Assembly: GCA_902783435.1 (NCBI GenBank)
Contig: CACZQV010000078.1
Location: 1-7,043 of the forward strand
DNA: 7,043 nt
Reading direction: 5' to 3'
Origin: an uncultured Erysipelotrichaceae bacterium
Lineage (GTDB): Bacteria; Bacillota_I; Bacilli_A; RF39; UBA660
This document shows positions 1 through 7,043 of this stretch, piece after piece (positions within the stretch are counted from its first letter, which is position 1; every line of letters starts with the position of its first letter). Under the pieces are notes generated by a model. It was not told the DNA's origin, ran no database searches, and saw only the letters and a program-made list of their open reading frames with translations. Both the position numbers and the translations under genes were made by a program.

Positions 1-3
1 ATA

Positions 4-77
4 TGGAGGGGCCTGACGGATTTGAACCGACGATCAGGGTGTTGCAGACCCACGCCTTACCACTTGGCTAAAGCCCC
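4..77 (-). tRNA. tRNA-Cys (anticodon GCA), CCA encoded
   Basis: The minus strand folds as a full cloverleaf. The acceptor stem pairs GGGGCTT with AGGCCCC, and the discriminator base is U, as expected for tRNA-Cys. The anticodon loop is CTGCAAC at 41-47, giving anticodon GCA at 43-45, so it reads UGC/UGU codons. The T loop is TTCAAAT at 20-26. The D arm keeps three G-C pairs plus an A13-A22 mismatch, which is also known from E. coli tRNA-Cys. The terminal CCA is genome-encoded at 4-6. Two U-U mismatches are visible, one at the top of the anticodon stem (36/52) and one in the T stem (16/30). An extended -10 promoter sits 13 bases upstream. Identity is secure; exact processing ends are inferred. 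Confidence 0.95.
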
Positions 78-89
78 GTTACGAATATT

Positions 90-98
90 ATTATAGCA
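90..98 (-). promoter_or_regulatory. Extended -10 promoter of tRNA-Cys
   Basis: The minus strand reads TGCTATAAT, a perfect TATAAT with an extended -10 TG. The predicted start is near 83, about six bases before the mature tRNA 5' end at 77. I see no convincing TTGACA box upstream. It is the same promoter type as at the protein genes in this window. Confidence 0.75.
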
Positions 99-120
99 AA
101 AAGAAATTTACTTTTCAATA

Positions 121-145
121 AAAAAAGAAAAGAATTTAATTCTTT
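121..145 (-). terminator. Intrinsic terminator after the 383-aa gene
   Basis: On the minus strand AAAGAA (140-145) pairs with TTCTTT (129-134) around a five-base loop that contains the TAA stop codon, followed by a run TCTTTTTTT. The stem is short and A/T-rich, so termination may be weak, but the U-tract is good. Confidence 0.6.
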
Positions 146-1287
146 CCTATATTATATATATTTTTATAATTATATCTTAATTCATTATTCTCTAATATTT
201 TTCTTAATCCTGTATCATCACTATAATAATAAATAGTATTATCTACTAAAATAATTATTTCATCATCTACTACTTTCCACTCTACTATATCATTTAATTC
301 TAGTAATAATGTTTTATTCTTTTTACTTTTTAATTGTTTATATATTTTATTATCTTCAATAAAGTATTTATAATTACTATTACTATAATCAAATATTTGA
401 TCTTTCATAAAATAATCACTCTTAGATAGTTTTTTCTTTTTACTATTATTAAATACTATATAACTACTTTGTTCATCATCTATTTCAGTTATTTTCTTTT
501 TTCTAATATCAATAGTATATTCTTTTTTATTACGTCTATCTGTTACATATATTAAGTTATTTACTACTCCATTGATATATGAATCTTTATCTAATTTTTC
601 TTTTAATTTAAATAAATTTATTTTATTTTTTATAGAATCATAATAATATATATTTTCTATACCATTAACACTAGTATTTTCAAATAATACATAGTATTTA
701 TCTACTACACAACTCATTAAATTATCATATAAATCATAATCTAATATTTTTACATATTTATTAGTATTATTTAAAATATATATACCTTTATAATTCCATA
801 TATAGAAATTATTATTATTGATATTCTTATTATATACAAATATTTTTTTATATTTTTTCTTTTTATTATTACTACTAGGTAATTTTATTTTTACTTTTTT
901 TATTATTTTATTAAAGTCTTCATTATTAGTCTTTAATAAATAATCATTAGATACTTGAATATTATCTAAGTTACAATAAATATTTTTATCTACATCTTTT
1001 TTATATATTGGGATAATACATTTTAAATTATTTTTTTTATATACTTTTATATCTTTTATTATTCTTTTTTGTTTACTTAGATTTTTATCTATTGTATATG
1101 TATAATTTTCTTTTTTATTAGTTATTATTAATTCATAATGATGACCATTCTTTTTATAGAAATGTTCATCAACATTATATTTATTTATTTTATAAGTAAA
1201 ATTGTGTTCTACTATTAATAGTTTAAATCCATAATAACAAATAATAATTATTAATAATAGAAATAATATACTTTTTATTTTCTTCAT
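136..1287 (-). CDS. Membrane-anchored beta-rich protein, function unknown
   Basis: 383 residues, not recognised as a named family. Residues about 5-26 are a hydrophobic anchor after a MKKIK start, so the rest is probably outside the cell. The body is extremely rich in Lys, Asn, Ile and Tyr. From about residue 148 onwards it shows repeated short strands ending in turns: IYILNNTNKYVKI (169-181), YYVLFENTSVNGIENIYYYD (198-217), LIYVTDRRNKKEYTIDIRK (245-263), IIILVDNTIYYYSDD (344-358). This pattern suggests a beta-propeller-like sensor or scaffold fold, which is an inference from alternation only. No catalytic motif is visible. The start is set by a GGTGAT ribosome binding site at 1291-1296 and an extended -10 promoter just upstream. 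It is a single-gene unit with its own terminator, followed by tRNA-Cys. Confidence 0.8.
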   Translation of the reverse strand: MKKIKSILFLLLIIIICYYGFKLLIVEHNFTYKINKYNVDEHFYKKNGHHYELIITNKKENYTYTIDKNLSKQKRIIKDIKVYKKNNLKCIIPIYKKDVDKNIYCNLDNIQVSNDYLLKTNNEDFNKIIKKVKIKLPSSNNKKKKYKKIFVYNKNINNNNFYIWNYKGIYILNNTNKYVKILDYDLYDNLMSCVVDKYYVLFENTSVNGIENIYYYDSIKNKINLFKLKEKLDKDSYINGVVNNLIYVTDRRNKKEYTIDIRKKKITEIDDEQSSYIVFNNSKKKKLSKSDYFMKDQIFDYSNSNYKYFIEDNKIYKQLKSKKNKTLLLELNDIVEWKVVDDEIIILVDNTIYYYSDDTGLRKILENNELRYNYKNIYNIGKN

Positions 1288-1302
1288 ATTATCACCATTT
1301 AA

Positions 1303-1311
1303 ATTATAACA
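1303..1311 (-). promoter_or_regulatory. Extended -10 promoter of the 383-aa gene
   Basis: The minus strand reads TGTTATAAT, 15 bases before the ATG at 1287. The preceding bases are the U-tract of the upstream gene's terminator, so any -35 element would lie inside that hairpin. No good TTGACA is seen. Confidence 0.7.
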
Positions 1312-1314
1312 AAG

Positions 1315-1336
1315 AAAAAGACTAAAAACTAGTCTT
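1315..1336 (-). terminator. Terminator of the thioredoxin/PH operon
   Basis: On the minus strand AAGACTA (1330-1336) pairs with TAGTCTT (1318-1324) across a GTTTT loop, followed by TTTC. The TAG stop codon at 1329-1331 lies in the hairpin. Confidence 0.7.
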
Positions 1337-1778
1337 CATTTTCGTCTCTATTTTTATATTCTTTTTTAGCTTCCATCATGTATGATGAAATTTCTGTTTC
1401 TATTTCAGTTAAGGCATCATTACTAATATTTGATAGAGTAACAAATTCTTTTACTGTATCAATATATACTCTACCCCAAATTATACCACCAGACACTTTT
1501 AAATCATTAAACATATCTGGAGTAATTGAATTTAAGAAATATCCAAATACTATTCTTTTTCTTCCTATTAATATTCTTTTTGTAGTTAAAGCAATTACTG
1601 ATGTTTCAAATATATTAAATGGATTATCATTCTTTTGAGCTGCGAATGCATATATCACTTCTTCATCTGGATTTAAATGTCTTTCAACTACTTCTGAATT
1701 TTTTCTTAATCTCCAAGCTATTGTCATTGGATACTTTTCTTTAAATTTTAATACTCTTTTATATATAGAATTTGCCAT
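1329..1778 (-). CDS. Bacterial PH-domain protein (bPH_3-like)
   Basis: 149 residues with no signal peptide or membrane segment, so cytoplasmic. Residues about 33-130 follow the pattern of the small bacterial PH-like family: LNPDEEVIYAF at 36-46, then VIALTTKRILIGRK at 61-74 (compare the typical 'lvlTnkRli' strand), a loop, GGIIWGRVYID at 97-107, and a C-terminal helix (DALTEIETEISSYMMEA). Such domains are often protein or membrane-binding modules; no specific role can be read from this one. The tail (KKEYKNRDENED) is charged. A perfect AGGAGGT ribosome binding site at 1785-1791 overlaps the TAG stop of the upstream thioredoxin-like gene, with 11 bases between the two reading frames, so the two are translated from one mRNA. 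Family assignment is by pattern, without a search. Confidence 0.8.
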   Translation of the reverse strand: MANSIYKRVLKFKEKYPMTIAWRLRKNSEVVERHLNPDEEVIYAFAAQKNDNPFNIFETSVIALTTKRILIGRKRIVFGYFLNSITPDMFNDLKVSGGIIWGRVYIDTVKEFVTLSNISNDALTEIETEISSYMMEAKKEYKNRDENED

Positions 1779-1784
1779 AATAAT

Positions 1785-1791
1785 ACCTCCT
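1785..1791 (-). promoter_or_regulatory. Ribosome binding site overlapping upstream stop codon
   Basis: The minus strand reads AGGAGGT, six bases before the PH-protein ATG. It shares two bases with the TAG stop of the thioredoxin-like gene (1790-1792), which supports operon structure and possibly translational coupling. Confidence 0.8.
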
Positions 1792-2311
1792 ACTTTATAA
1801 ATTTATTATCTTTAAATATTTTTTCATAATGAGCATAATCTGTAAGTCCATCTATCATATCAATTATTTTATTATTACTAATAATTAATAACATTGGTGT
1901 ACCAAAGCCTTCATTAAATTTTTTATTTGATTCCATAAATCTTTTTGCGTCATCATTTTGAAAATTATCAGTATTTAAATAATTAATATCTAAATCATAA
2001 TCGTATGCTACTTTACTAATTATTGGTTCTGCGATTTGACAATACTGACATGTAGGTCTAGCTATTAAAACTATTTTATTTTCTGAACCATTATAATATT
2101 CAAAATATGTATCTATATTTATTTCGGTAAATGTTTTTTGTTCTTTTGAATTTTTAAATGATGAACTTTGTTCTTGAGCATTTTGCATAATAACATTTGG
2201 ATCATTTGATAGTTCATGTTTTTCTTCTTTATTAGGATCTAATGTAATACATATAATTAATAAAATACAAAGTATTATCACACCTATTATTCCAAAATAC
2301 TTTTTATTCAT
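1790..2311 (-). CDS. Membrane-anchored thioredoxin-fold protein, CQYC active site
   Basis: 173 residues. Residues about 5-24 form an N-terminal membrane anchor; the sequence at Cys21 is not a standard lipobox. A polar linker (about 25-58) follows, then a thioredoxin domain (about 59-170). The redox motif is RPTCQYCQ with Cys88 and Cys91, preceded by the strand KIVLIA, and the cis-proline is Pro139 in FGTPMLLII. It resembles the extracytoplasmic thioredoxin-like proteins annotated as bacteriocin transport accessory proteins, and would reduce, form or shuffle disulfides on the outer face of the membrane. It is first gene of a two-gene unit with the PH-domain protein, and lies directly downstream of a surface protein with eleven cysteines, a plausible client (inference). 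The start is fixed by a GAGGG ribosome binding site at 2317-2321 and a close promoter. Confidence 0.87.
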   Translation of the reverse strand: MNKKYFGIIGVIILCILLIICITLDPNKEEKHELSNDPNVIMQNAQEQSSSFKNSKEQKTFTEINIDTYFEYYNGSENKIVLIARPTCQYCQIAEPIISKVAYDYDLDINYLNTDNFQNDDAKRFMESNKKFNEGFGTPMLLIISNNKIIDMIDGLTDYAHYEKIFKDNKFIK

Positions 2312-2330
2312 AATATCCCTCTTTTGTCTT

Positions 2331-2339
2331 ATTATAACA
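2331..2339 (-). promoter_or_regulatory. Extended -10 promoter of the thioredoxin/PH operon
   Basis: The minus strand reads TATGTTATAAT, a perfect -10 with a TRTG extension. The predicted start is near 2324, leaving a leader of only about 13 bases that is almost entirely ribosome binding site. The best -35 candidate (TTTTAA, 17 bases upstream) is poor. Confidence 0.75.
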
Positions 2340-2352
2340 TAGAGAATTTTAT

Positions 2353-2386
2353 ATTAAAAGAAAAAAGAAGATGAATTCTTCTTTTT
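2353..2386 (-). terminator. Terminator after the DGR-type target gene
   Basis: On the minus strand AAAAAGAAGA (2377-2386) pairs with TCTTCTTTTT (2362-2371) around ATTCA, followed by a T-rich run. The ten-pair stem begins within the TAA stop codon. Its position shortly after the 3' end of the variable region means it might also serve as a DGR target-side hairpin, but this is speculation. Confidence 0.75.
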
Positions 2387-3848
2387 AATAACTTATTTTA
2401 TTCTTTGGTACTTCAATTACAGGACGGGCGCCGCGGCTACTGGAATCGTTAGCGTAGTAGCTGCCCACGTCGCGGCTGCCGCCATCGACATTCCAGACAT
2501 CGCTAGAGTGAGACGCATGAGGCGACTCAAGCCAGTATCCGTAGGAACCTATACTTGATTTTGCATATTTTGTATTTTCCATTAAATAATTACATGTATC
2601 TAATTCTCCCATTGAACAACTTCCTACTTGTGATAGGCCACATCCACTCATTAATTCTTTTACTGTTAAAAATCTTGCAGCATATCCTGAATAACTATAT
2701 GCTCTTGGTAATGTTCCTCCCTCTGTTGTTGGTGAATCATGTGTTGAAGTATATTCTGCTAATATTGCACGTGAATTATTCTTTAAGCTTACATTACTCC
2801 ATTGTGTTGTTGTTGGTAATTGAAGTTTTACTGTCTCTGGTCCACGCCTGTTCACGCTTGCTGCCCCATAATATGCATATGTGTTTTTATTACATGATAC
2901 TCCTTCTGTTACATTATTATAATATACTAATACTGCTGTTGTTGTATCAAATACTTTATTTGTTGTATCATAGTAATCTGATACATAATAGAATCTTTCT
3001 GTTAATTCATCAAATGTTCCATCTCCATTGACATCACATGTGAAGGCATCACCTGATACCGGATCTGCTTGTTGTGTTCCACAATTACCATATGTTATTG
3101 TTGTTGTGCCTTTAGAACCTGACGCTGTATATCCTGCTCCAGAACAGTAATAATCTGTTTGAGTACACTCCTCTTGATGTAATTGAATAGCTCTTTTACA
3201 TATTGTTCCTGCTGGTACTGTTACATTTTCATTTGCTGAACATGTAGTAGATGATAATGTCGTTATATTTTCGTTATTATTACATACTGGTGGTGTATAA
3301 CTATCTGTATAATTATATGTTATTTTAAATGTATAACTTGGATAATCTGTTACTGTTGTCATGTCTGTACCACTTATATAATTAAATTTAAATTTATATG
3401 TTTGTGTTCCTGCTATTGCTAATTCTTCTCCAGTTTCAATTGCTGTTCCATCTCCATGAGTTATACTATATTCATATGGAGCTGCTAAAGTTATTTCTGT
3501 TGTTCCATTATATACTTTTATATCAATTCCTGATAAATAAGCTTTTTTACTACCTTTATTTATTACTGTAGTAGTCTCTTCAAAGAATGATGAACCATCA
3601 CTTGTAAGTGCTGTAGTGAAATCAACCTCTTTTTTATCATTACCTATTATTGTAGGAGTACCTGTAGTACTTCCACTAGTTACATTAACTCCTTGTATAT
3701 ATGAATTTAACTCAGGTGCTTCTACTGTAACATCTCCATTAATATTTAAATTTGCTTCTAGAAAGGCATATCCTATACCTAGAAATACTACTAATATGAA
3801 TATTATTTTATAAAGATTATGAGTTTTAGTTTTAATATTCTTTTTCAT
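2385..3848 (-). CDS. Cys-rich anchored surface protein, C-lectin-like DGR target
   Basis: 487 residues. Residues about 12-30 are an N-terminal anchor ending in GIGYAFLEANLNINGDVTVEAP, a signature common at the start of surface proteins in gut Bacilli. Residues about 37-185 are a beta-rich, Thr/Ser-rich domain without cysteine. From residue 188 the protein is cysteine-rich (eleven Cys from 189 to 419). A calcium-loop-like segment DVNGDGTFDELTE is at 272-284. The C-terminal block (about 284-480) contains ERFYYVSDYYDT, LPTTTQWSNV, YSGYAARFLTVKEL, CNYLMEN and YGYWLESP, then ends in GARPVIEV, a layout seen in C-type-lectin/formylglycine-enzyme-like targets of gut DGRs. Codons 444-472 are GC-rich and almost all NNY, the mark of retroelement mutagenesis. 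It is probably exposed on the cell surface and binds a variable ligand (inference). Ribosome binding site AGGGAG at 3856-3861; single-gene unit. Confidence 0.88.
   Translation of the reverse strand: MKKNIKTKTHNLYKIIFILVVFLGIGYAFLEANLNINGDVTVEAPELNSYIQGVNVTSGSTTGTPTIIGNDKKEVDFTTALTSDGSSFFEETTTVINKGSKKAYLSGIDIKVYNGTTEITLAAPYEYSITHGDGTAIETGEELAIAGTQTYKFKFNYISGTDMTTVTDYPSYTFKITYNYTDSYTPPVCNNNENITTLSSTTCSANENVTVPAGTICKRAIQLHQEECTQTDYYCSGAGYTASGSKGTTTITYGNCGTQQADPVSGDAFTCDVNGDGTFDELTERFYYVSDYYDTTNKVFDTTTAVLVYYNNVTEGVSCNKNTYAYYGAASVNRRGPETVKLQLPTTTQWSNVSLKNNSRAILAEYTSTHDSPTTEGGTLPRAYSYSGYAARFLTVKELMSGCGLSQVGSCSMGELDTCNYLMENTKYAKSSIGSYGYWLESPHASHSSDVWNVDGGSRDVGSYYANDSSSRGARPVIEVPKNKISY
2424..2549 (-). 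other. Probable DGR variable region (VR)
   Basis: The core 2424-2531 is 67 of 108 G+C (62%), unlike the AT-rich gene around it. From His444 to Arg472 (2433-2519), 26 of 29 codons end in C or T; the exceptions are GCG, TGG and GTG. The residues at the candidate sites are only H, S, D, N, G, R and Y, all encodable by NNY, as expected if AAY codons of a template were randomised at their two adenines. Fixed positions (P-A, VW-V, V, A, then GARPV) interrupt the variable runs. The exact edges cannot be set without the template repeat; the GC-rich GGCGCCCGTCC end at 2422-2432 is a likely initiation-of-mutagenic-homing side. DGR variable regions sit in just this position, at the end of a lectin-like target gene. 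Confidence 0.75.
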
Positions 3849-3867
3849 ACTATCGCTCCCTATTATT

Positions 3868-3876
3868 AATATAACA
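3868..3876 (-). promoter_or_regulatory. Extended -10 promoter of the DGR-type target gene
   Basis: The minus strand reads TGTTATATT, about 19 bases before the ATG at 3848, directly after the U-tract of the ABC-F terminator. No good -35 is visible. The target thus appears to be transcribed on its own. Confidence 0.65.
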
Positions 3877-3902
3877 AAAAAAAAGAGTTTTTTAAACTCT
3901 TT
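3876..3902 (-). terminator. Terminator of the ABC-F gene
   Basis: On the minus strand AAAGAGTTT (3894-3902) pairs with AAACTCTTT (3882-3890) around a three-base loop and is followed by further Ts to about nine in total. The right edge overlaps the TAA stop at 3901-3903. This is one of the strongest terminators in the window. Confidence 0.85.
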
Positions 3903-5487
3903 ATTTATTTTTTTCTAAATATTCTTCATATGGTAATACTCTATCTGTTATTTTACCTTCTGCATCTATTTCAATTACTCTATTTGTAACTGTTCTATTT
4001 AATTCATAATCACGTGATGTGAATAGTACCTCTCCTTTAAAGTTTAATAATCCTTTATTTAGTGAAGTTATACTTTCTAGATCTAGATGGTTTGTTGGTT
4101 CATCTAATATTAAGAAATTTGGTTCTTCTAACATTATTTTTGATAACATACATCTTGCTTTTTCTCCACCAGATAAAACATTAACTTTTTTAAATACATC
4201 TTCTCCTGAAAATAACATTCTACCTAAGAATCCACGTGTTACTGTTTCATCTTTTATATCATAATATTGTCCAAGCCACTCTAATATATTTTTATCTGTA
4301 TTAAAGTATTCATTATTATCTTGTGGAAGATATCCTGGGATAATTGTTTTACCCCATTCTATTGTTCCTTTATCATATTTTTCTTTACCACTTAAAATAT
4401 TAAATAGAGTTGTTTTTTGCATATCGTTTGATGCGATAAAACAAATTTTATCTCCTTTTAATACTGTGAATGATACTTTATCTAGTATTTTTTTACCATC
4501 TACTATTTTAGTTAAGTTTTCTACTTTTAATATTTCTTTTCCTGCTTCTTTTTCTATTTTAAAATCAATATATGGATATTTTCTTGATGATGGAACTATT
4601 TCATCTAATTCAATCTTTTCTAGCATTTTCTTTCTTGATGTAGCTTGTTTAGATTTTGATGCATTAGCTGAGAATCTAGCGATGAATGCTTGTAGTTCTT
4701 TTATTTTTTCTTCTTTCTTCTTATTTGATTCTCTCATTTGCTTTTGTAGTAATTCACTTGATTCATACCAGAAATCATAGTTACCTACATATAGTTTTAT
4801 TTTTCCATAATCTATATCAGCAATATGTGTACATACTTTATTTAAGAAGTATCTATCATGAGATACTATAATAACTGTATTATTGAAGTTAATTAAGAAT
4901 TCTTCTAACCATCTTATTGCATCTAAATCTAGGGAGTTAGTTGGTTCATCTAGAAGTAGGATATCAGGATTACCAAATAATGCTTGTGCAAGTAATACTT
5001 TAACTCTTAGTTTTACTGGTATTTCTTTCATATTTACATAATGATATTCTTCATTTATTCCTAAGTTATTTAAAAGTTGAGCTGCATCTGGTTCAGCATT
5101 CCATCCATCTAATTCCATAAATTCAGCTTCTAAGTTGGCAAGTTTCATACCATCTTCATCAGTAAATTCTGTTTGTTGATACATCTTATCTTTTTCTTCC
5201 ATTATTTTCCATAACTTAGTATTTCCCATCATAACAACATCAATTACTCTATTTTCATCATATTGATAGTGATCTTGCTTTAATATAGAAATTCTTTCAT
5301 CTTTAGTAATAGTTATTTCACCAGTAGTAGTTTCTAATTCTCCACTTAATAATTTTAAAAAAGTAGATTTTCCACTACCATTAGCTCCTATAAGACCATA
5401 ACAATTACCATTAGTAAATTTTATATTAACATCTTCAAAAAGTGTTCTTTTACCGAATTTTAAACTTACGTTGTTTACTTGTATCAT
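3901..5487 (-). CDS. ykpA: ABC-F family ATPase, YkpA/YbiT-like
   Basis: 528 residues, close to full length for the family and matching Bacillus subtilis YkpA along its length from memory (start MIQVNNVSLKFGKRTLFEDV; linker ARFSANASKSKQATSRKK). ABC-F proteins have two ATPase domains, no membrane part, and act on the ribosome near the tRNA exit and P sites. NBD1 has Walker A GANGSGKST at 34-42, Walker B LLLDEPTN with Asp180/Glu181 and switch His210. The coiled linker is about 241-300. NBD2 has signature LSGGE at 438-442, Asp462/Glu463 and DEPTNHLD. Odd points: the NBD1 signature is replaced by IPVKLR (156-161), NBD2 Walker A is ASNDMQKTT (352-360), and the NBD2 switch His is Arg492, so one composite ATP site looks dead. 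GAGGTG ribosome binding site at 5493-5498; single-gene unit. Whether it gives translation-factor or resistance activity cannot be told. Confidence 0.93.
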   Translation of the reverse strand: MIQVNNVSLKFGKRTLFEDVNIKFTNGNCYGLIGANGSGKSTFLKLLSGELETTTGEITITKDERISILKQDHYQYDENRVIDVVMMGNTKLWKIMEEKDKMYQQTEFTDEDGMKLANLEAEFMELDGWNAEPDAAQLLNNLGINEEYHYVNMKEIPVKLRVKVLLAQALFGNPDILLLDEPTNSLDLDAIRWLEEFLINFNNTVIIVSHDRYFLNKVCTHIADIDYGKIKLYVGNYDFWYESSELLQKQMRESNKKKEEKIKELQAFIARFSANASKSKQATSRKKMLEKIELDEIVPSSRKYPYIDFKIEKEAGKEILKVENLTKIVDGKKILDKVSFTVLKGDKICFIASNDMQKTTLFNILSGKEKYDKGTIEWGKTIIPGYLPQDNNEYFNTDKNILEWLGQYYDIKDETVTRGFLGRMLFSGEDVFKKVNVLSGGEKARCMLSKIMLEEPNFLILDEPTNHLDLESITSLNKGLLNFKGEVLFTSRDYELNRTVTNRVIEIDAEGKITDRVLPYEEYLEKNK

Positions 5488-5509
5488 ACTATCACCTCAA
5501 AACACTAAT

Positions 5510-5518
5510 ATTTTAACA
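5510..5518 (-). promoter_or_regulatory. Extended -10 promoter of the ABC-F gene
   Basis: The minus strand reads TGTTAAAAT, 22 bases before the ATG, immediately after the upstream U-tract. One mismatch to TATAAT; no good -35 is seen. Confidence 0.6.
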
Positions 5519-5555
5519 AAAAAAAAGAGATTAGACAAGTTTAATCCATTCTCTT
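5518..5555 (-). terminator. Terminator of the kinase-like gene
   Basis: On the minus strand GATTA (5542-5546) pairs with TAATC (5529-5533), with a possible lower AAGA/TCTT stem across a bulge, followed by a run of nine Ts. The stop codon at 5541-5543 lies within the hairpin. Confidence 0.7.
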
Positions 5556-6212
5556 AACAAATTGTTTAAATGTATCATTATCTTCTAATAATTCTCTTAA
5601 ATAATAACTTGTATTATCAGAAGAATCTTTCATTTCTAATAATTCTTTTACTTCGTTTATTGTACTTTTTTGAAAATTAATTCTTCCTAGTTCTTGAATT
5701 ATTAACGCAGTAAATAATAAATGAAATTGATATTTATTTAACTGTTCTAAGTATTCTGTAGATGTATCTTCTAATACTGAATAACTAGTTGGATCTGTTA
5801 AATAAATTCTTCCATTAAATATTGTATTACTTGGTTCTATTCCATTTAATAGAACTTGTTTTCTACTTAGTGTTTCTATATCTTTTTCTATAATTGAAGA
5901 ATTCTCTATAAGTTCATCTTTAGGTAACATTATCATTCTATTACCCATACCTTTTTTAGATACTAATTTATATGTATAACCTCTAAAAGCATTATTAAAG
6001 AATAGTAATTTTTCTGGGAGTAATATTCTATTTGTAGAAATGCCTGTTAGATAAGAAGCAGTCTCATAATCTATTGGAGTGTCTTTATCTTTTTTAAATA
6101 CTTTTAAAGCACTATTTTTATACTTATAAACATCTCCTGTTACTCCTGTACCAATCTTCTTTAAATTTTTCTTTGTAAGAGTTATATCTTTGTCATCTAA
6201 CTTATATCCCAT
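5541..6212 (-). CDS. Small protein-kinase-fold protein, altered catalytic loop
   Basis: 223 residues, soluble, no signal peptide. The N-lobe is clear: glycine-rich loop GTGVTGDVY at 21-29 (Gly21, Gly23, Gly26) and ALKVFK with the ATP-binding Lys37; Glu50 in IDYETASYL is the likely helix-C partner. A hinge-like segment is FRGYTYKLV (76-84). The catalytic loop reads LLNGIEPSNTIFN (121-133): Asn129 is kept, but the position five residues earlier, where HRD-type kinases have the catalytic Asp, is Gly124. The metal-binding Asp is probably Asp140 in LTDPTSY. It is short for a Ser/Thr kinase and may be a pseudokinase, or use a different base; related fold families (small-molecule kinases) cannot be excluded. 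A strong GGAGGGG ribosome binding site at 6218-6224, five bases before ATG, decides the start. Single-gene unit. Confidence 0.75.
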   Translation of the reverse strand: MGYKLDDKDITLTKKNLKKIGTGVTGDVYKYKNSALKVFKKDKDTPIDYETASYLTGISTNRILLPEKLLFFNNAFRGYTYKLVSKKGMGNRMIMLPKDELIENSSIIEKDIETLSRKQVLLNGIEPSNTIFNGRIYLTDPTSYSVLEDTSTEYLEQLNKYQFHLLFTALIIQELGRINFQKSTINEVKELLEMKDSSDNTSYYLRELLEDNDTFKQFVKRMD

Positions 6213-6238
6213 AGAGACCCCTCCGTTTTTATGGCTAT

Positions 6239-6247
6239 ACTATAACA
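6239..6247 (-). promoter_or_regulatory. Extended -10 promoter of the kinase-like gene
   Basis: The minus strand reads TATGTTATAGT, a TRTG extension with one mismatch in the -10. The leader after it is about 20 bases, longer than at its neighbours because of the GGAGGGG site and its spacer. Confidence 0.6.
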
Positions 6248-6254
6248 TATATGT

Positions 6255-6272
6255 ATTTATTTGTAAATAAAT
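6255..6272 (-). repeat. A/T-only palindrome, weak possible terminator
   Basis: ATTTATTT (6255-6262) is the exact reverse complement of AAATAAAT (6265-6272), giving a seven-pair hairpin with a four-base loop, next to the TAA stop of the membrane-protein gene. No U-tract follows on the minus strand, so read-through into the kinase-like gene is possible. Confidence 0.35.
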
Positions 6273-6859
6273 TAATTTTTATAGAAATTTGATATAAATT
6301 TAGAAAACTCATAAAGTATGATATCACTTTTATTAATTGCGAAACTTTTACCTATAGCTTTACCACCTATTGTTAATGATGAGATGATTGCAGTTATTAT
6401 TAATCCCGTTAAAAGTAAGTCTGTATGATATTTTGTTACTAAGATTGCACATATTGTAGTTCCTGCAGCACCTGATATTACTCCACAAATATCTCCTATA
6501 ACATCACAACAGAAGCTTGATGTTTTATCAGCACTTTTTTTAAATCTTACTGCAGTAGTAGCTCCTTTTACCTTACGGGAAGCCATTGAATGAAATACTG
6601 CTTCATCAGCACTAGTTACAGCTACCCCTACTATATCAAAAAGTATTCCTATAAATATAAATATTAAAGTTAATATTATTCCAAATATTAAAGATAAATT
6701 AGGTATAGTAGAATTAGCTATAAAAGATAAAGAAAATGATATTACGAAGGCAATTATTATTATTGTGATTATCCATTTAATATCTACTTTTTCTTTTTTT
6801 ATTTTTTCTCTTTTTTTAGTTTGTTCTACTAAGTTTTTAAATTCACTATTATTTTTCAT
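6272..6859 (-). CDS. Four-helix integral membrane protein, unknown function
   Basis: 195 residues. A charged cytoplasmic N-terminus (residues 1-27, Lys-rich) precedes hydrophobic segments at about 28-48, 55-82, 119-142 and 147-167. Between the second and third lies a polar stretch that looks conserved in character: DIVGVAVTSADEAVFHSMASRKVKGATTAVRF split over 75-105, followed by a Cys pair in SFCCDVIGDICGVISG (115-130). The 'ADEAVFHSMASRKVKGA' part recalls the DUF21 membrane domain of CorB/CNNM-type proteins, where a similar Glu/Ala-rich turn ends a helix, but the CBS domains of that family are absent and I would not name it so. Ribosome binding site AGGAGA at 6865-6870 and a perfect extended -10 upstream fix the start. 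Single gene, possibly with read-through to the kinase-like gene. Confidence 0.85.
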   Translation of the reverse strand: MKNNSEFKNLVEQTKKREKIKKEKVDIKWIITIIIIAFVISFSLSFIANSTIPNLSLIFGIILTLIFIFIGILFDIVGVAVTSADEAVFHSMASRKVKGATTAVRFKKSADKTSSFCCDVIGDICGVISGAAGTTICAILVTKYHTDLLLTGLIITAIISSLTIGGKAIGKSFAINKSDIILYEFSKFISNFYKN

Positions 6860-6878
6860 ATTATTCTCCTATAAATTA

Positions 6879-6887
6879 ATTATAACA
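6879..6887 (-). promoter_or_regulatory. Extended -10 promoter of the membrane-protein gene
   Basis: The minus strand reads TATGTTATAAT, perfect -10 with TRTG extension, 19 bases before the ATG at 6859 and just after the U-tract of the preceding terminator. Confidence 0.75.
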
Positions 6888-6888
6888 T

Positions 6889-6913
6889 AAAAAAAAGTAG
6901 TTTAACCTACTTT
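6889..6913 (-). terminator. Terminator of the truncated right-edge gene
   Basis: On the minus strand AAAGTAG (6907-6913) pairs with CTACTTT (6894-6900) around GTTAAA, followed by five more Ts (eight in a row counting the stem end). The hairpin overlaps the TAA stop at 6912-6914. A T-run also follows on the plus strand (6916-6920), so it might work in both directions. Confidence 0.8.
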
Positions 6914-7043
6914 AATTTTTATAAATTGTTTGGCTTTTAATATAATTAACTTTGAACCTTAGGTCAAGTAGGATTTCCCTGATTTCTACAAATCCGTTAC
7001 CAGAAATGTGGTTCCCCTTTAAAGAAATCAATATGGCGTTACC
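6912..7043 (-). CDS. 3' end of a gene cut by the window edge
   Basis: 43 codons are open to the right edge and end in TAA at 6912-6914, overlapping a good terminator, as the other genes here do. The peptide runs GNAILISLKGNHISGNGFV then EIREILLDLRFKVNYIKSQTIYKN. I do not recognise it. The first 27 or so codons use AAC, GCC, GGG, CAC, AGG, ATC and GAC, and the stretch 6961-7043 is about 40% G+C, richer than its neighbours; the last twelve codons return to A/T-rich use. This could be a well-conserved or recently acquired gene, or a structured RNA that happens to be open. The frame, the stop and the terminator position make coding the better guess. Confidence 0.55.
   Translation of the reverse strand, partial: GNAILISLKGNHISGNGFVEIREILLDLRFKVNYIKSQTIYKN

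Follow-up and report, generated by a model that had tools for sequence, protein, structure and literature searches.

A probable remote target of a diversity-generating retroelement in the genome of an uncultured Erysipelotrichaceae bacterium

We analysed a 7,043-nucleotide stretch of DNA from an uncultured Erysipelotrichaceae bacterium (contig CACZQV010000078.1 of assembly GCA_902783435.1, positions 1 to 7,043; hereafter the window) and found that one of its genes ends in a variable region (VR) with the footprint of a diversity-generating retroelement (DGR). The product is probably a remote (trans) DGR target, that is, a membrane-anchored lectin-like protein diversified from a template repeat (TR) elsewhere in the cell. 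The gene and its parts are as follows.

2385..3848, minus strand: target gene, 487 amino acids, with an N-terminal helix, an Ig-like domain and a C-terminal C-type-lectin-like domain ending in the VR (open reading frame, AlphaFold model and fold comparisons)
3750..3839, minus strand: N-terminal helix, residues 4–33 (helix in the model and hydrophobic sequence)
3300..3722, minus strand: Ig-like beta-sandwich, residues 43–183
2388–3215, minus strand: C-type-lectin-like domain as modelled, residues 212–487
2388..3074, minus strand: C-type-lectin-like domain as matched by PDB 9qa6, residues 259–487
2421..2546, minus strand: VR, about codons 435–476 (G+C content and codon pattern, codon-position inversion and ungapped TR alignment)
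2433–2519, minus strand: core of variable codons, 444–472

The VR is compositionally distinct. The G+C content is 0.254 for the window and 0.333 for the target gene, and the highest value for any 108 bases, 0.63, is reached from starts at 2420–2426; the best 108 bases elsewhere reach 0.44 (starts up to 100, beyond the last 208 bases and at 2302–2560 excluded). This agrees with the original prediction, which had placed a 62% G+C island of 108 bases at the 3′ end of this AT-rich gene and had rightly located the region at 2424–2549, the unusual codon use spanning about codons 435–476 (2421–2546). Our recount of codons H444–R472 matched the predicted 26 of 29 ending in C or T exactly; 17 of 29 end in C, and the corresponding proportions in the rest of the gene are 41.9% and 5.0% (binomial p of about 1e-7 and 2e-15, respectively). 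Any run of 29 codons in the six other genes of the window contains at most 21 C/T-ending and 6 C-ending codons.

Codon positions in the VR are conserved in an inverted order. The window target was aligned codon by codon with seven related targets, three of them close (L001, L002 and L003) and four remoter (L096 of genome G508 and three of genome G223). Relative to the close three, VR identity is 0.80, 0.83 and 0.80 at position 3 and 0.47–0.60 at positions 1 and 2 (Fisher p = 0.008, 0.014 and 0.017, uncorrected for the seven comparisons made), whereas the rest of the gene has the opposite pattern (0.63–0.69 at position 3 and 0.70–0.80 at positions 1–2). The inversion is sharper between L001 and L002 (0.69, 0.45 and 0.97 at positions 1, 2 and 3). 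Such third-position conservation is expected if AAY codons are randomised to NNY within a shared template lineage. Residues that NNY cannot encode are also rare: in 49 unique homologue segments (the register being present in 59 of the 120 homologues listed), K, E, Q, M and W occupy 26 of 637 cells in columns where a G223 template has asparagine, versus 2606 of 17672 residues elsewhere in these proteins. These template-Asn columns are more variable (3.04 versus 2.08 bits); the columns of residues 453, 455 and 472 are likewise among the most variable of the family, and V451, W452, V454, G456, R459, V461 and A466 lie in comparatively conserved columns. A near-identical protein, P0001, differs by D39G and D455V only, with D455V alone in the variable region—a weak indication; the protein database is clustered at 90%, which hides strain variants.

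Templates of the kind implied by this pattern occur in related genomes. The query was the template predicted by writing AAY at the variable codons of the VR. It matched 14 genomes at E ≤ 0.001 among 197 relatives of G001 (the matches of G001 and G003 being their own VRs) and 25 genomes at E ≤ 1e-6 among 386 genomes of the family of G483. From the latter search 29 loci were listed, 27 of them template-like, with a reverse transcriptase (RT) match near 16 of these 27 and near 0 of 37 controls, as judged in fetched stretches of up to 1.5 kb on each side. Loci were labelled template-like by counting asparagines, a measure that an Asn-rich query favours; the independent evidence in this result is the adjacency to RTs. 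The 27 loci also include near-copies that share a genome (L140/L150 and L138/L151). The AAY template foreseen in the original prediction is therefore supported in relatives, where the query recovered TR-like repeats of which many lie beside RTs. RTs were called DGR-type by match to three that had been picked by context (Avd-like gene, TR and VR) and not by phylogeny, and NCBIfam names these three only below its cut-offs. RVT_1 was also matched at L088 of G223 and L004 of G002. One match of the search among 197 genomes, L040 of G146, is a plain Asn-rich repeat inside a gene. In IMG/VR, ten stretches fitted a pattern for relatives of the target, of which none was confirmed, and a degenerate template pattern gave 0 matches.

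Mismatches between TRs and VRs in these relatives are biased to template adenines (counts are given at template A, then at other template bases): 18/40 and 0/83 for L119 of G506; 22/43 and 11/85 in G424, of the nearest genus; 26/60 and 9/108 for L006 of G002; and 15–19/34 and 11–15/74 for L058 of G223 against four VRs of that genome. The latter VRs (L074, L109 and L111 among them) lie in separate target genes, and L058, L066 and L071 are near-copies of a single template with divergent 3′ parts; these templates and VRs are spread over several contigs. In G002, the L032 VR on contig C27 is fitted better by the L005 template beside an RT on contig C21 (27/40 and 2/68) than by its adjoining template (27/37 and 14/69), which suggests homing in trans or template exchange. 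L058, from another genus-level lineage, aligns with the window over 110 bases without gaps (19/34 and 22/76; p = 0.007, or 0.97 with roles reversed); counts for L066, L071 and L005 against the window are 20/35 and 18/62, 13/22 and 17/55, and 23/40 and 20/68, respectively. The templates of G002 fail for its own L002 target, with non-A mismatches of 15/51 and 9/32 and, for a third, only a 22-base alignment. L058 holds 13 AAY codons between Pro and Gly-x-Arg-Pro, so that residues 447, 449, 450, 457, 458, 460, 462–465, 467, 468 and 471 are likely to be the diversified ones. The 'up to about 23' variable codons proposed at first are probably too many, given these 13 and the seven residues in conserved columns; judged from the alignments, about 13–16 is the likelier number.

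An origin without any DGR, whether by acquisition of G+C-rich foreign DNA or by diversifying selection on an ordinary hypervariable loop, is very improbable. Foreign DNA can give a G+C island, and five relatives lack the gene at the same place (see below), but selection on residues would neither keep third positions above first and second nor avoid K, E, Q, M and W, and the related genomes hold templates with adenine-biased mismatches to similar domains, one of them in register with the window.

The predicted structure of the protein (AlphaFold, mean pLDDT 91.1) fits a DGR target, as the VR forms the 3′ end of a gene with C-type-lectin-like and Ig-type domains. The lectin-like domain was modelled alone because a fold search with the whole model was dominated by the Ig-like part, and its model matches solved C-type-lectin-like domains, among them the N-terminal domain of the Thomasclavelia ramosa IgA peptidase (PDB 9qa6; PMC12237041, PMC12402451), which is joined there to a metallopeptidase, whereas the window protein has no peptidase family match. 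The helix at residues 4–33 is probably a membrane signal anchor, to judge from the model and the hydrophobic sequence. A family-profile search of solved structures gave three matches (E = 0.5 to 1.6) that we take as chance. The protein scores 16.8 bits for Pfam DUF6273 (PF19789; cut-off 23.5) and is not counted as a member, although the fold is related and several of the 120 listed homologues carry PF19789. In L001, L002 and L003, a like VR-bearing C-terminal domain ends much longer open frames, of 1047, 1523 and 1974 residues (that of 1047 runs open to the contig end), and several of the listed homologues of the lectin-like domain have PF09479 repeats; to judge from these sequences, different anchors seem to exchange this lectin end.

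The target gene lies among chromosomal housekeeping genes with no recognisable phage. Its nearest neighbours and a hairpin are as follows.

3901..5487, minus strand: upstream neighbour, an ATPase gene that we take to be of the ABC-F type (ABC_tran and ABC_tran_Xtn matches)
1790..2311, minus strand: downstream neighbour, a thioredoxin-like gene
2362..2386, minus strand: hairpin directly after the stop codon, whose 10-bp stem closes a 5-base loop, followed by a T-rich stretch (DNA fold, z = −2.3 and −2.5)

Besides the target and these two neighbours, the window contains tRNA-Cys, two genes of unknown family, a bPH_3 protein gene, a membrane protein gene and the 3′ part of an OLE RNA. The DNA of the ABC-F gene served to pick the nearest genomes, and the five best of the 385 searched are 84–87% identical to it. 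In all five relatives whose locus was compared (G483, G026, G453, G424 and G402), the thioredoxin-like and ABC-F genes are adjacent without a target between them; relative to these genomes, the target gene is an insertion. The hairpin is terminator-like and may be merely a terminator. Hairpins after the VR can occur in DGR targets, as in BPP-1, and related TRs have a common G+C-rich, GGCGYYCGYCC-like end; by analogy, a homing role is possible.

Several results weigh against a DGR that acts on this gene in this strain. The inversion is absent relative to the four remoter targets. Searches of the window by tblastn with the three RTs picked by context reached no E-value below 3.2, an adenine-tolerant search for the 80-base VR core found no copy besides the VR itself, and the VR is not copied in the 20 largest of 37 direct-repeat families; with neither RT nor template adjoining the VR, the gene is not part of a DGR cassette and can at most be a remote target. 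The closest targets found are those of G001, G002, G003 and G508 (three of these genomes are Bacilli or Bacillales metagenome-assembled genomes, two of them from sheep and goat ileum); in none of the four was a cognate TR found, and three of the four gave no RT (no RVT_1 match in G001 and G003 and no RT match in G508). G508 belongs to the nearest genus, and its related target ends in a 62% G+C stretch; apart from the VR of this target, nothing template-like was found in that genome. A DGR-context RT match was obtained in only 3 of 39 genomes of the genus. Among templates compared with the window, L058 has 29% non-A mismatches and so is a relative rather than the template itself, that of L032 in G002 shows no adenine bias (19/36 and 22/52; p = 0.23), and two others gave alignments too short to count. 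Of the original claim of an active or recently active target, the DGR reading stands, on the inversion, the scarcity of NNY-unreachable residues, the C-type-lectin fold and the templates in relatives, whereas activity in this strain was not borne out, for want of an RT or TR in the window and of a cognate TR in the four genomes.

The same gaps would be explained if the VR were a relic that a DGR had generated in an ancestral or donor genome, now frozen in a strain that lost or never had the RT and template. G001, G003 and G508 are likewise without detectable RT and template, the gene is inserted at a place that is empty in five relatives, and Treponema denticola isolates with only the target have been interpreted as remnants (PMC4891356). 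We nevertheless consider a relic unlikely, if not negligibly so: third positions of the VR are 80–83% identical to those of three relatives, versus 63–69% in the rest of the gene, with no visible decay, and are still C-rich in a 25% G+C genome. Furthermore, the relatives are metagenome assemblies, and in G223 three TRs and two of the VRs are no further than 1.1 kb from a contig end; where assemblies of this kind break, an RT may simply be lost.

Under the remote-target reading, the template RNA would be encoded at another place in the cell and would have about 13–16 AAY codons; an error-prone RT would copy it, and the cDNA would replace the VR, with positions 1 and 2 of the AAY codons randomised and third positions and framework codons kept. 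Lying between the ABC-F and thioredoxin-like genes without its own RT or template, the target would be acted on in trans. The protein would be membrane-anchored and probably surface-exposed, and the C-terminal C-type-lectin-like domain that ends in the VR may bind a ligand. It is quite unlikely, though conceivable, that phages or other mobile elements bring in DGRs that diversify stand-alone chromosomal targets of this lineage, which lack a template and RT of their own, such an element thereby retuning a surface lectin of its host.

Remote DGR targets are already known, and on this reading the window gene adds another. In cyanobacteria (PMC7517822) and T. denticola (PMC4891356), remote variable proteins have the same VR at the 3′ end of a C-type-lectin gene, away from the RT/TR cassette, and genomes with only the target also occur in T. 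denticola; the host here differs in being one of the uncultured Bacilli, and the target is known without its TR and RT. Among targets of phage DGRs, tentaclins (PMC10743442) and those of Faecalibacterium prophages (PMC11792537) share the DUF6273-type lectin-like domain, C-terminal VR and Ig-like domains, whereas the window protein scores below the DUF6273 cut-off, has the order helix, Ig-like domain and lectin, and has chromosomal housekeeping neighbours. Mtd of phage BPP-1 and TvpA of T. denticola (PDB 1yu3 and 2y3c) are among the closest known systems. Cassettes with MSL (MutS-like, PF01624) and Avd accessories (PMC10053308) are matched not by the window but by L005 and L006 of G002, which encode RVT_1 proteins, MutS domain I proteins that pass the cut-off of Pfam and Avd-like proteins that fall short of the cut-offs (39.9 of 40 bits and 19.9 of 40). 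A large metagenome survey sought VRs beside RTs and states that remote targets would go undetected (PMC8144416). As this case shows, a single gene can be enough to recognise a remote target, by predicting the AAY template from the VR, searching relatives with it and testing codon-position conservation, and candidate DGR targets gain a chromosomal, membrane-anchored lectin-like protein of uncultured Bacilli. None of the 15 papers listed out of 2,385 literature matches joined DGRs with Mollicutes, RF39, Tenericutes or Bacilli, from which we claim no absence.

Two further observations were made. In G506, the L119 locus (G506:C7:22728-25784) carries a DGR with its VR at about 700–830, template at about 1465–1595 and RT at about 1592–2770. 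The RT frame has 4 TAG and 0 TAA or TGA in 394 codons, from which TAG appears to be a sense codon in this contig. At one codon the template has AAG and the VR has TAG, a change by mutagenesis that would have created a stop under the standard code. The L119 RT is similar to phage RTs (70 records, the best at 41% identity), and the contig is therefore probably a phage binned with the genome. In the window, a membrane protein gene (6272–6859, minus strand) that may encode the OLE partner OapA (a name that no family match supports) follows the 3′ part of an OLE RNA at 6914–7043 on the minus strand (RF01071, 75.7 bits, gathering 50), which is cut by the window end.
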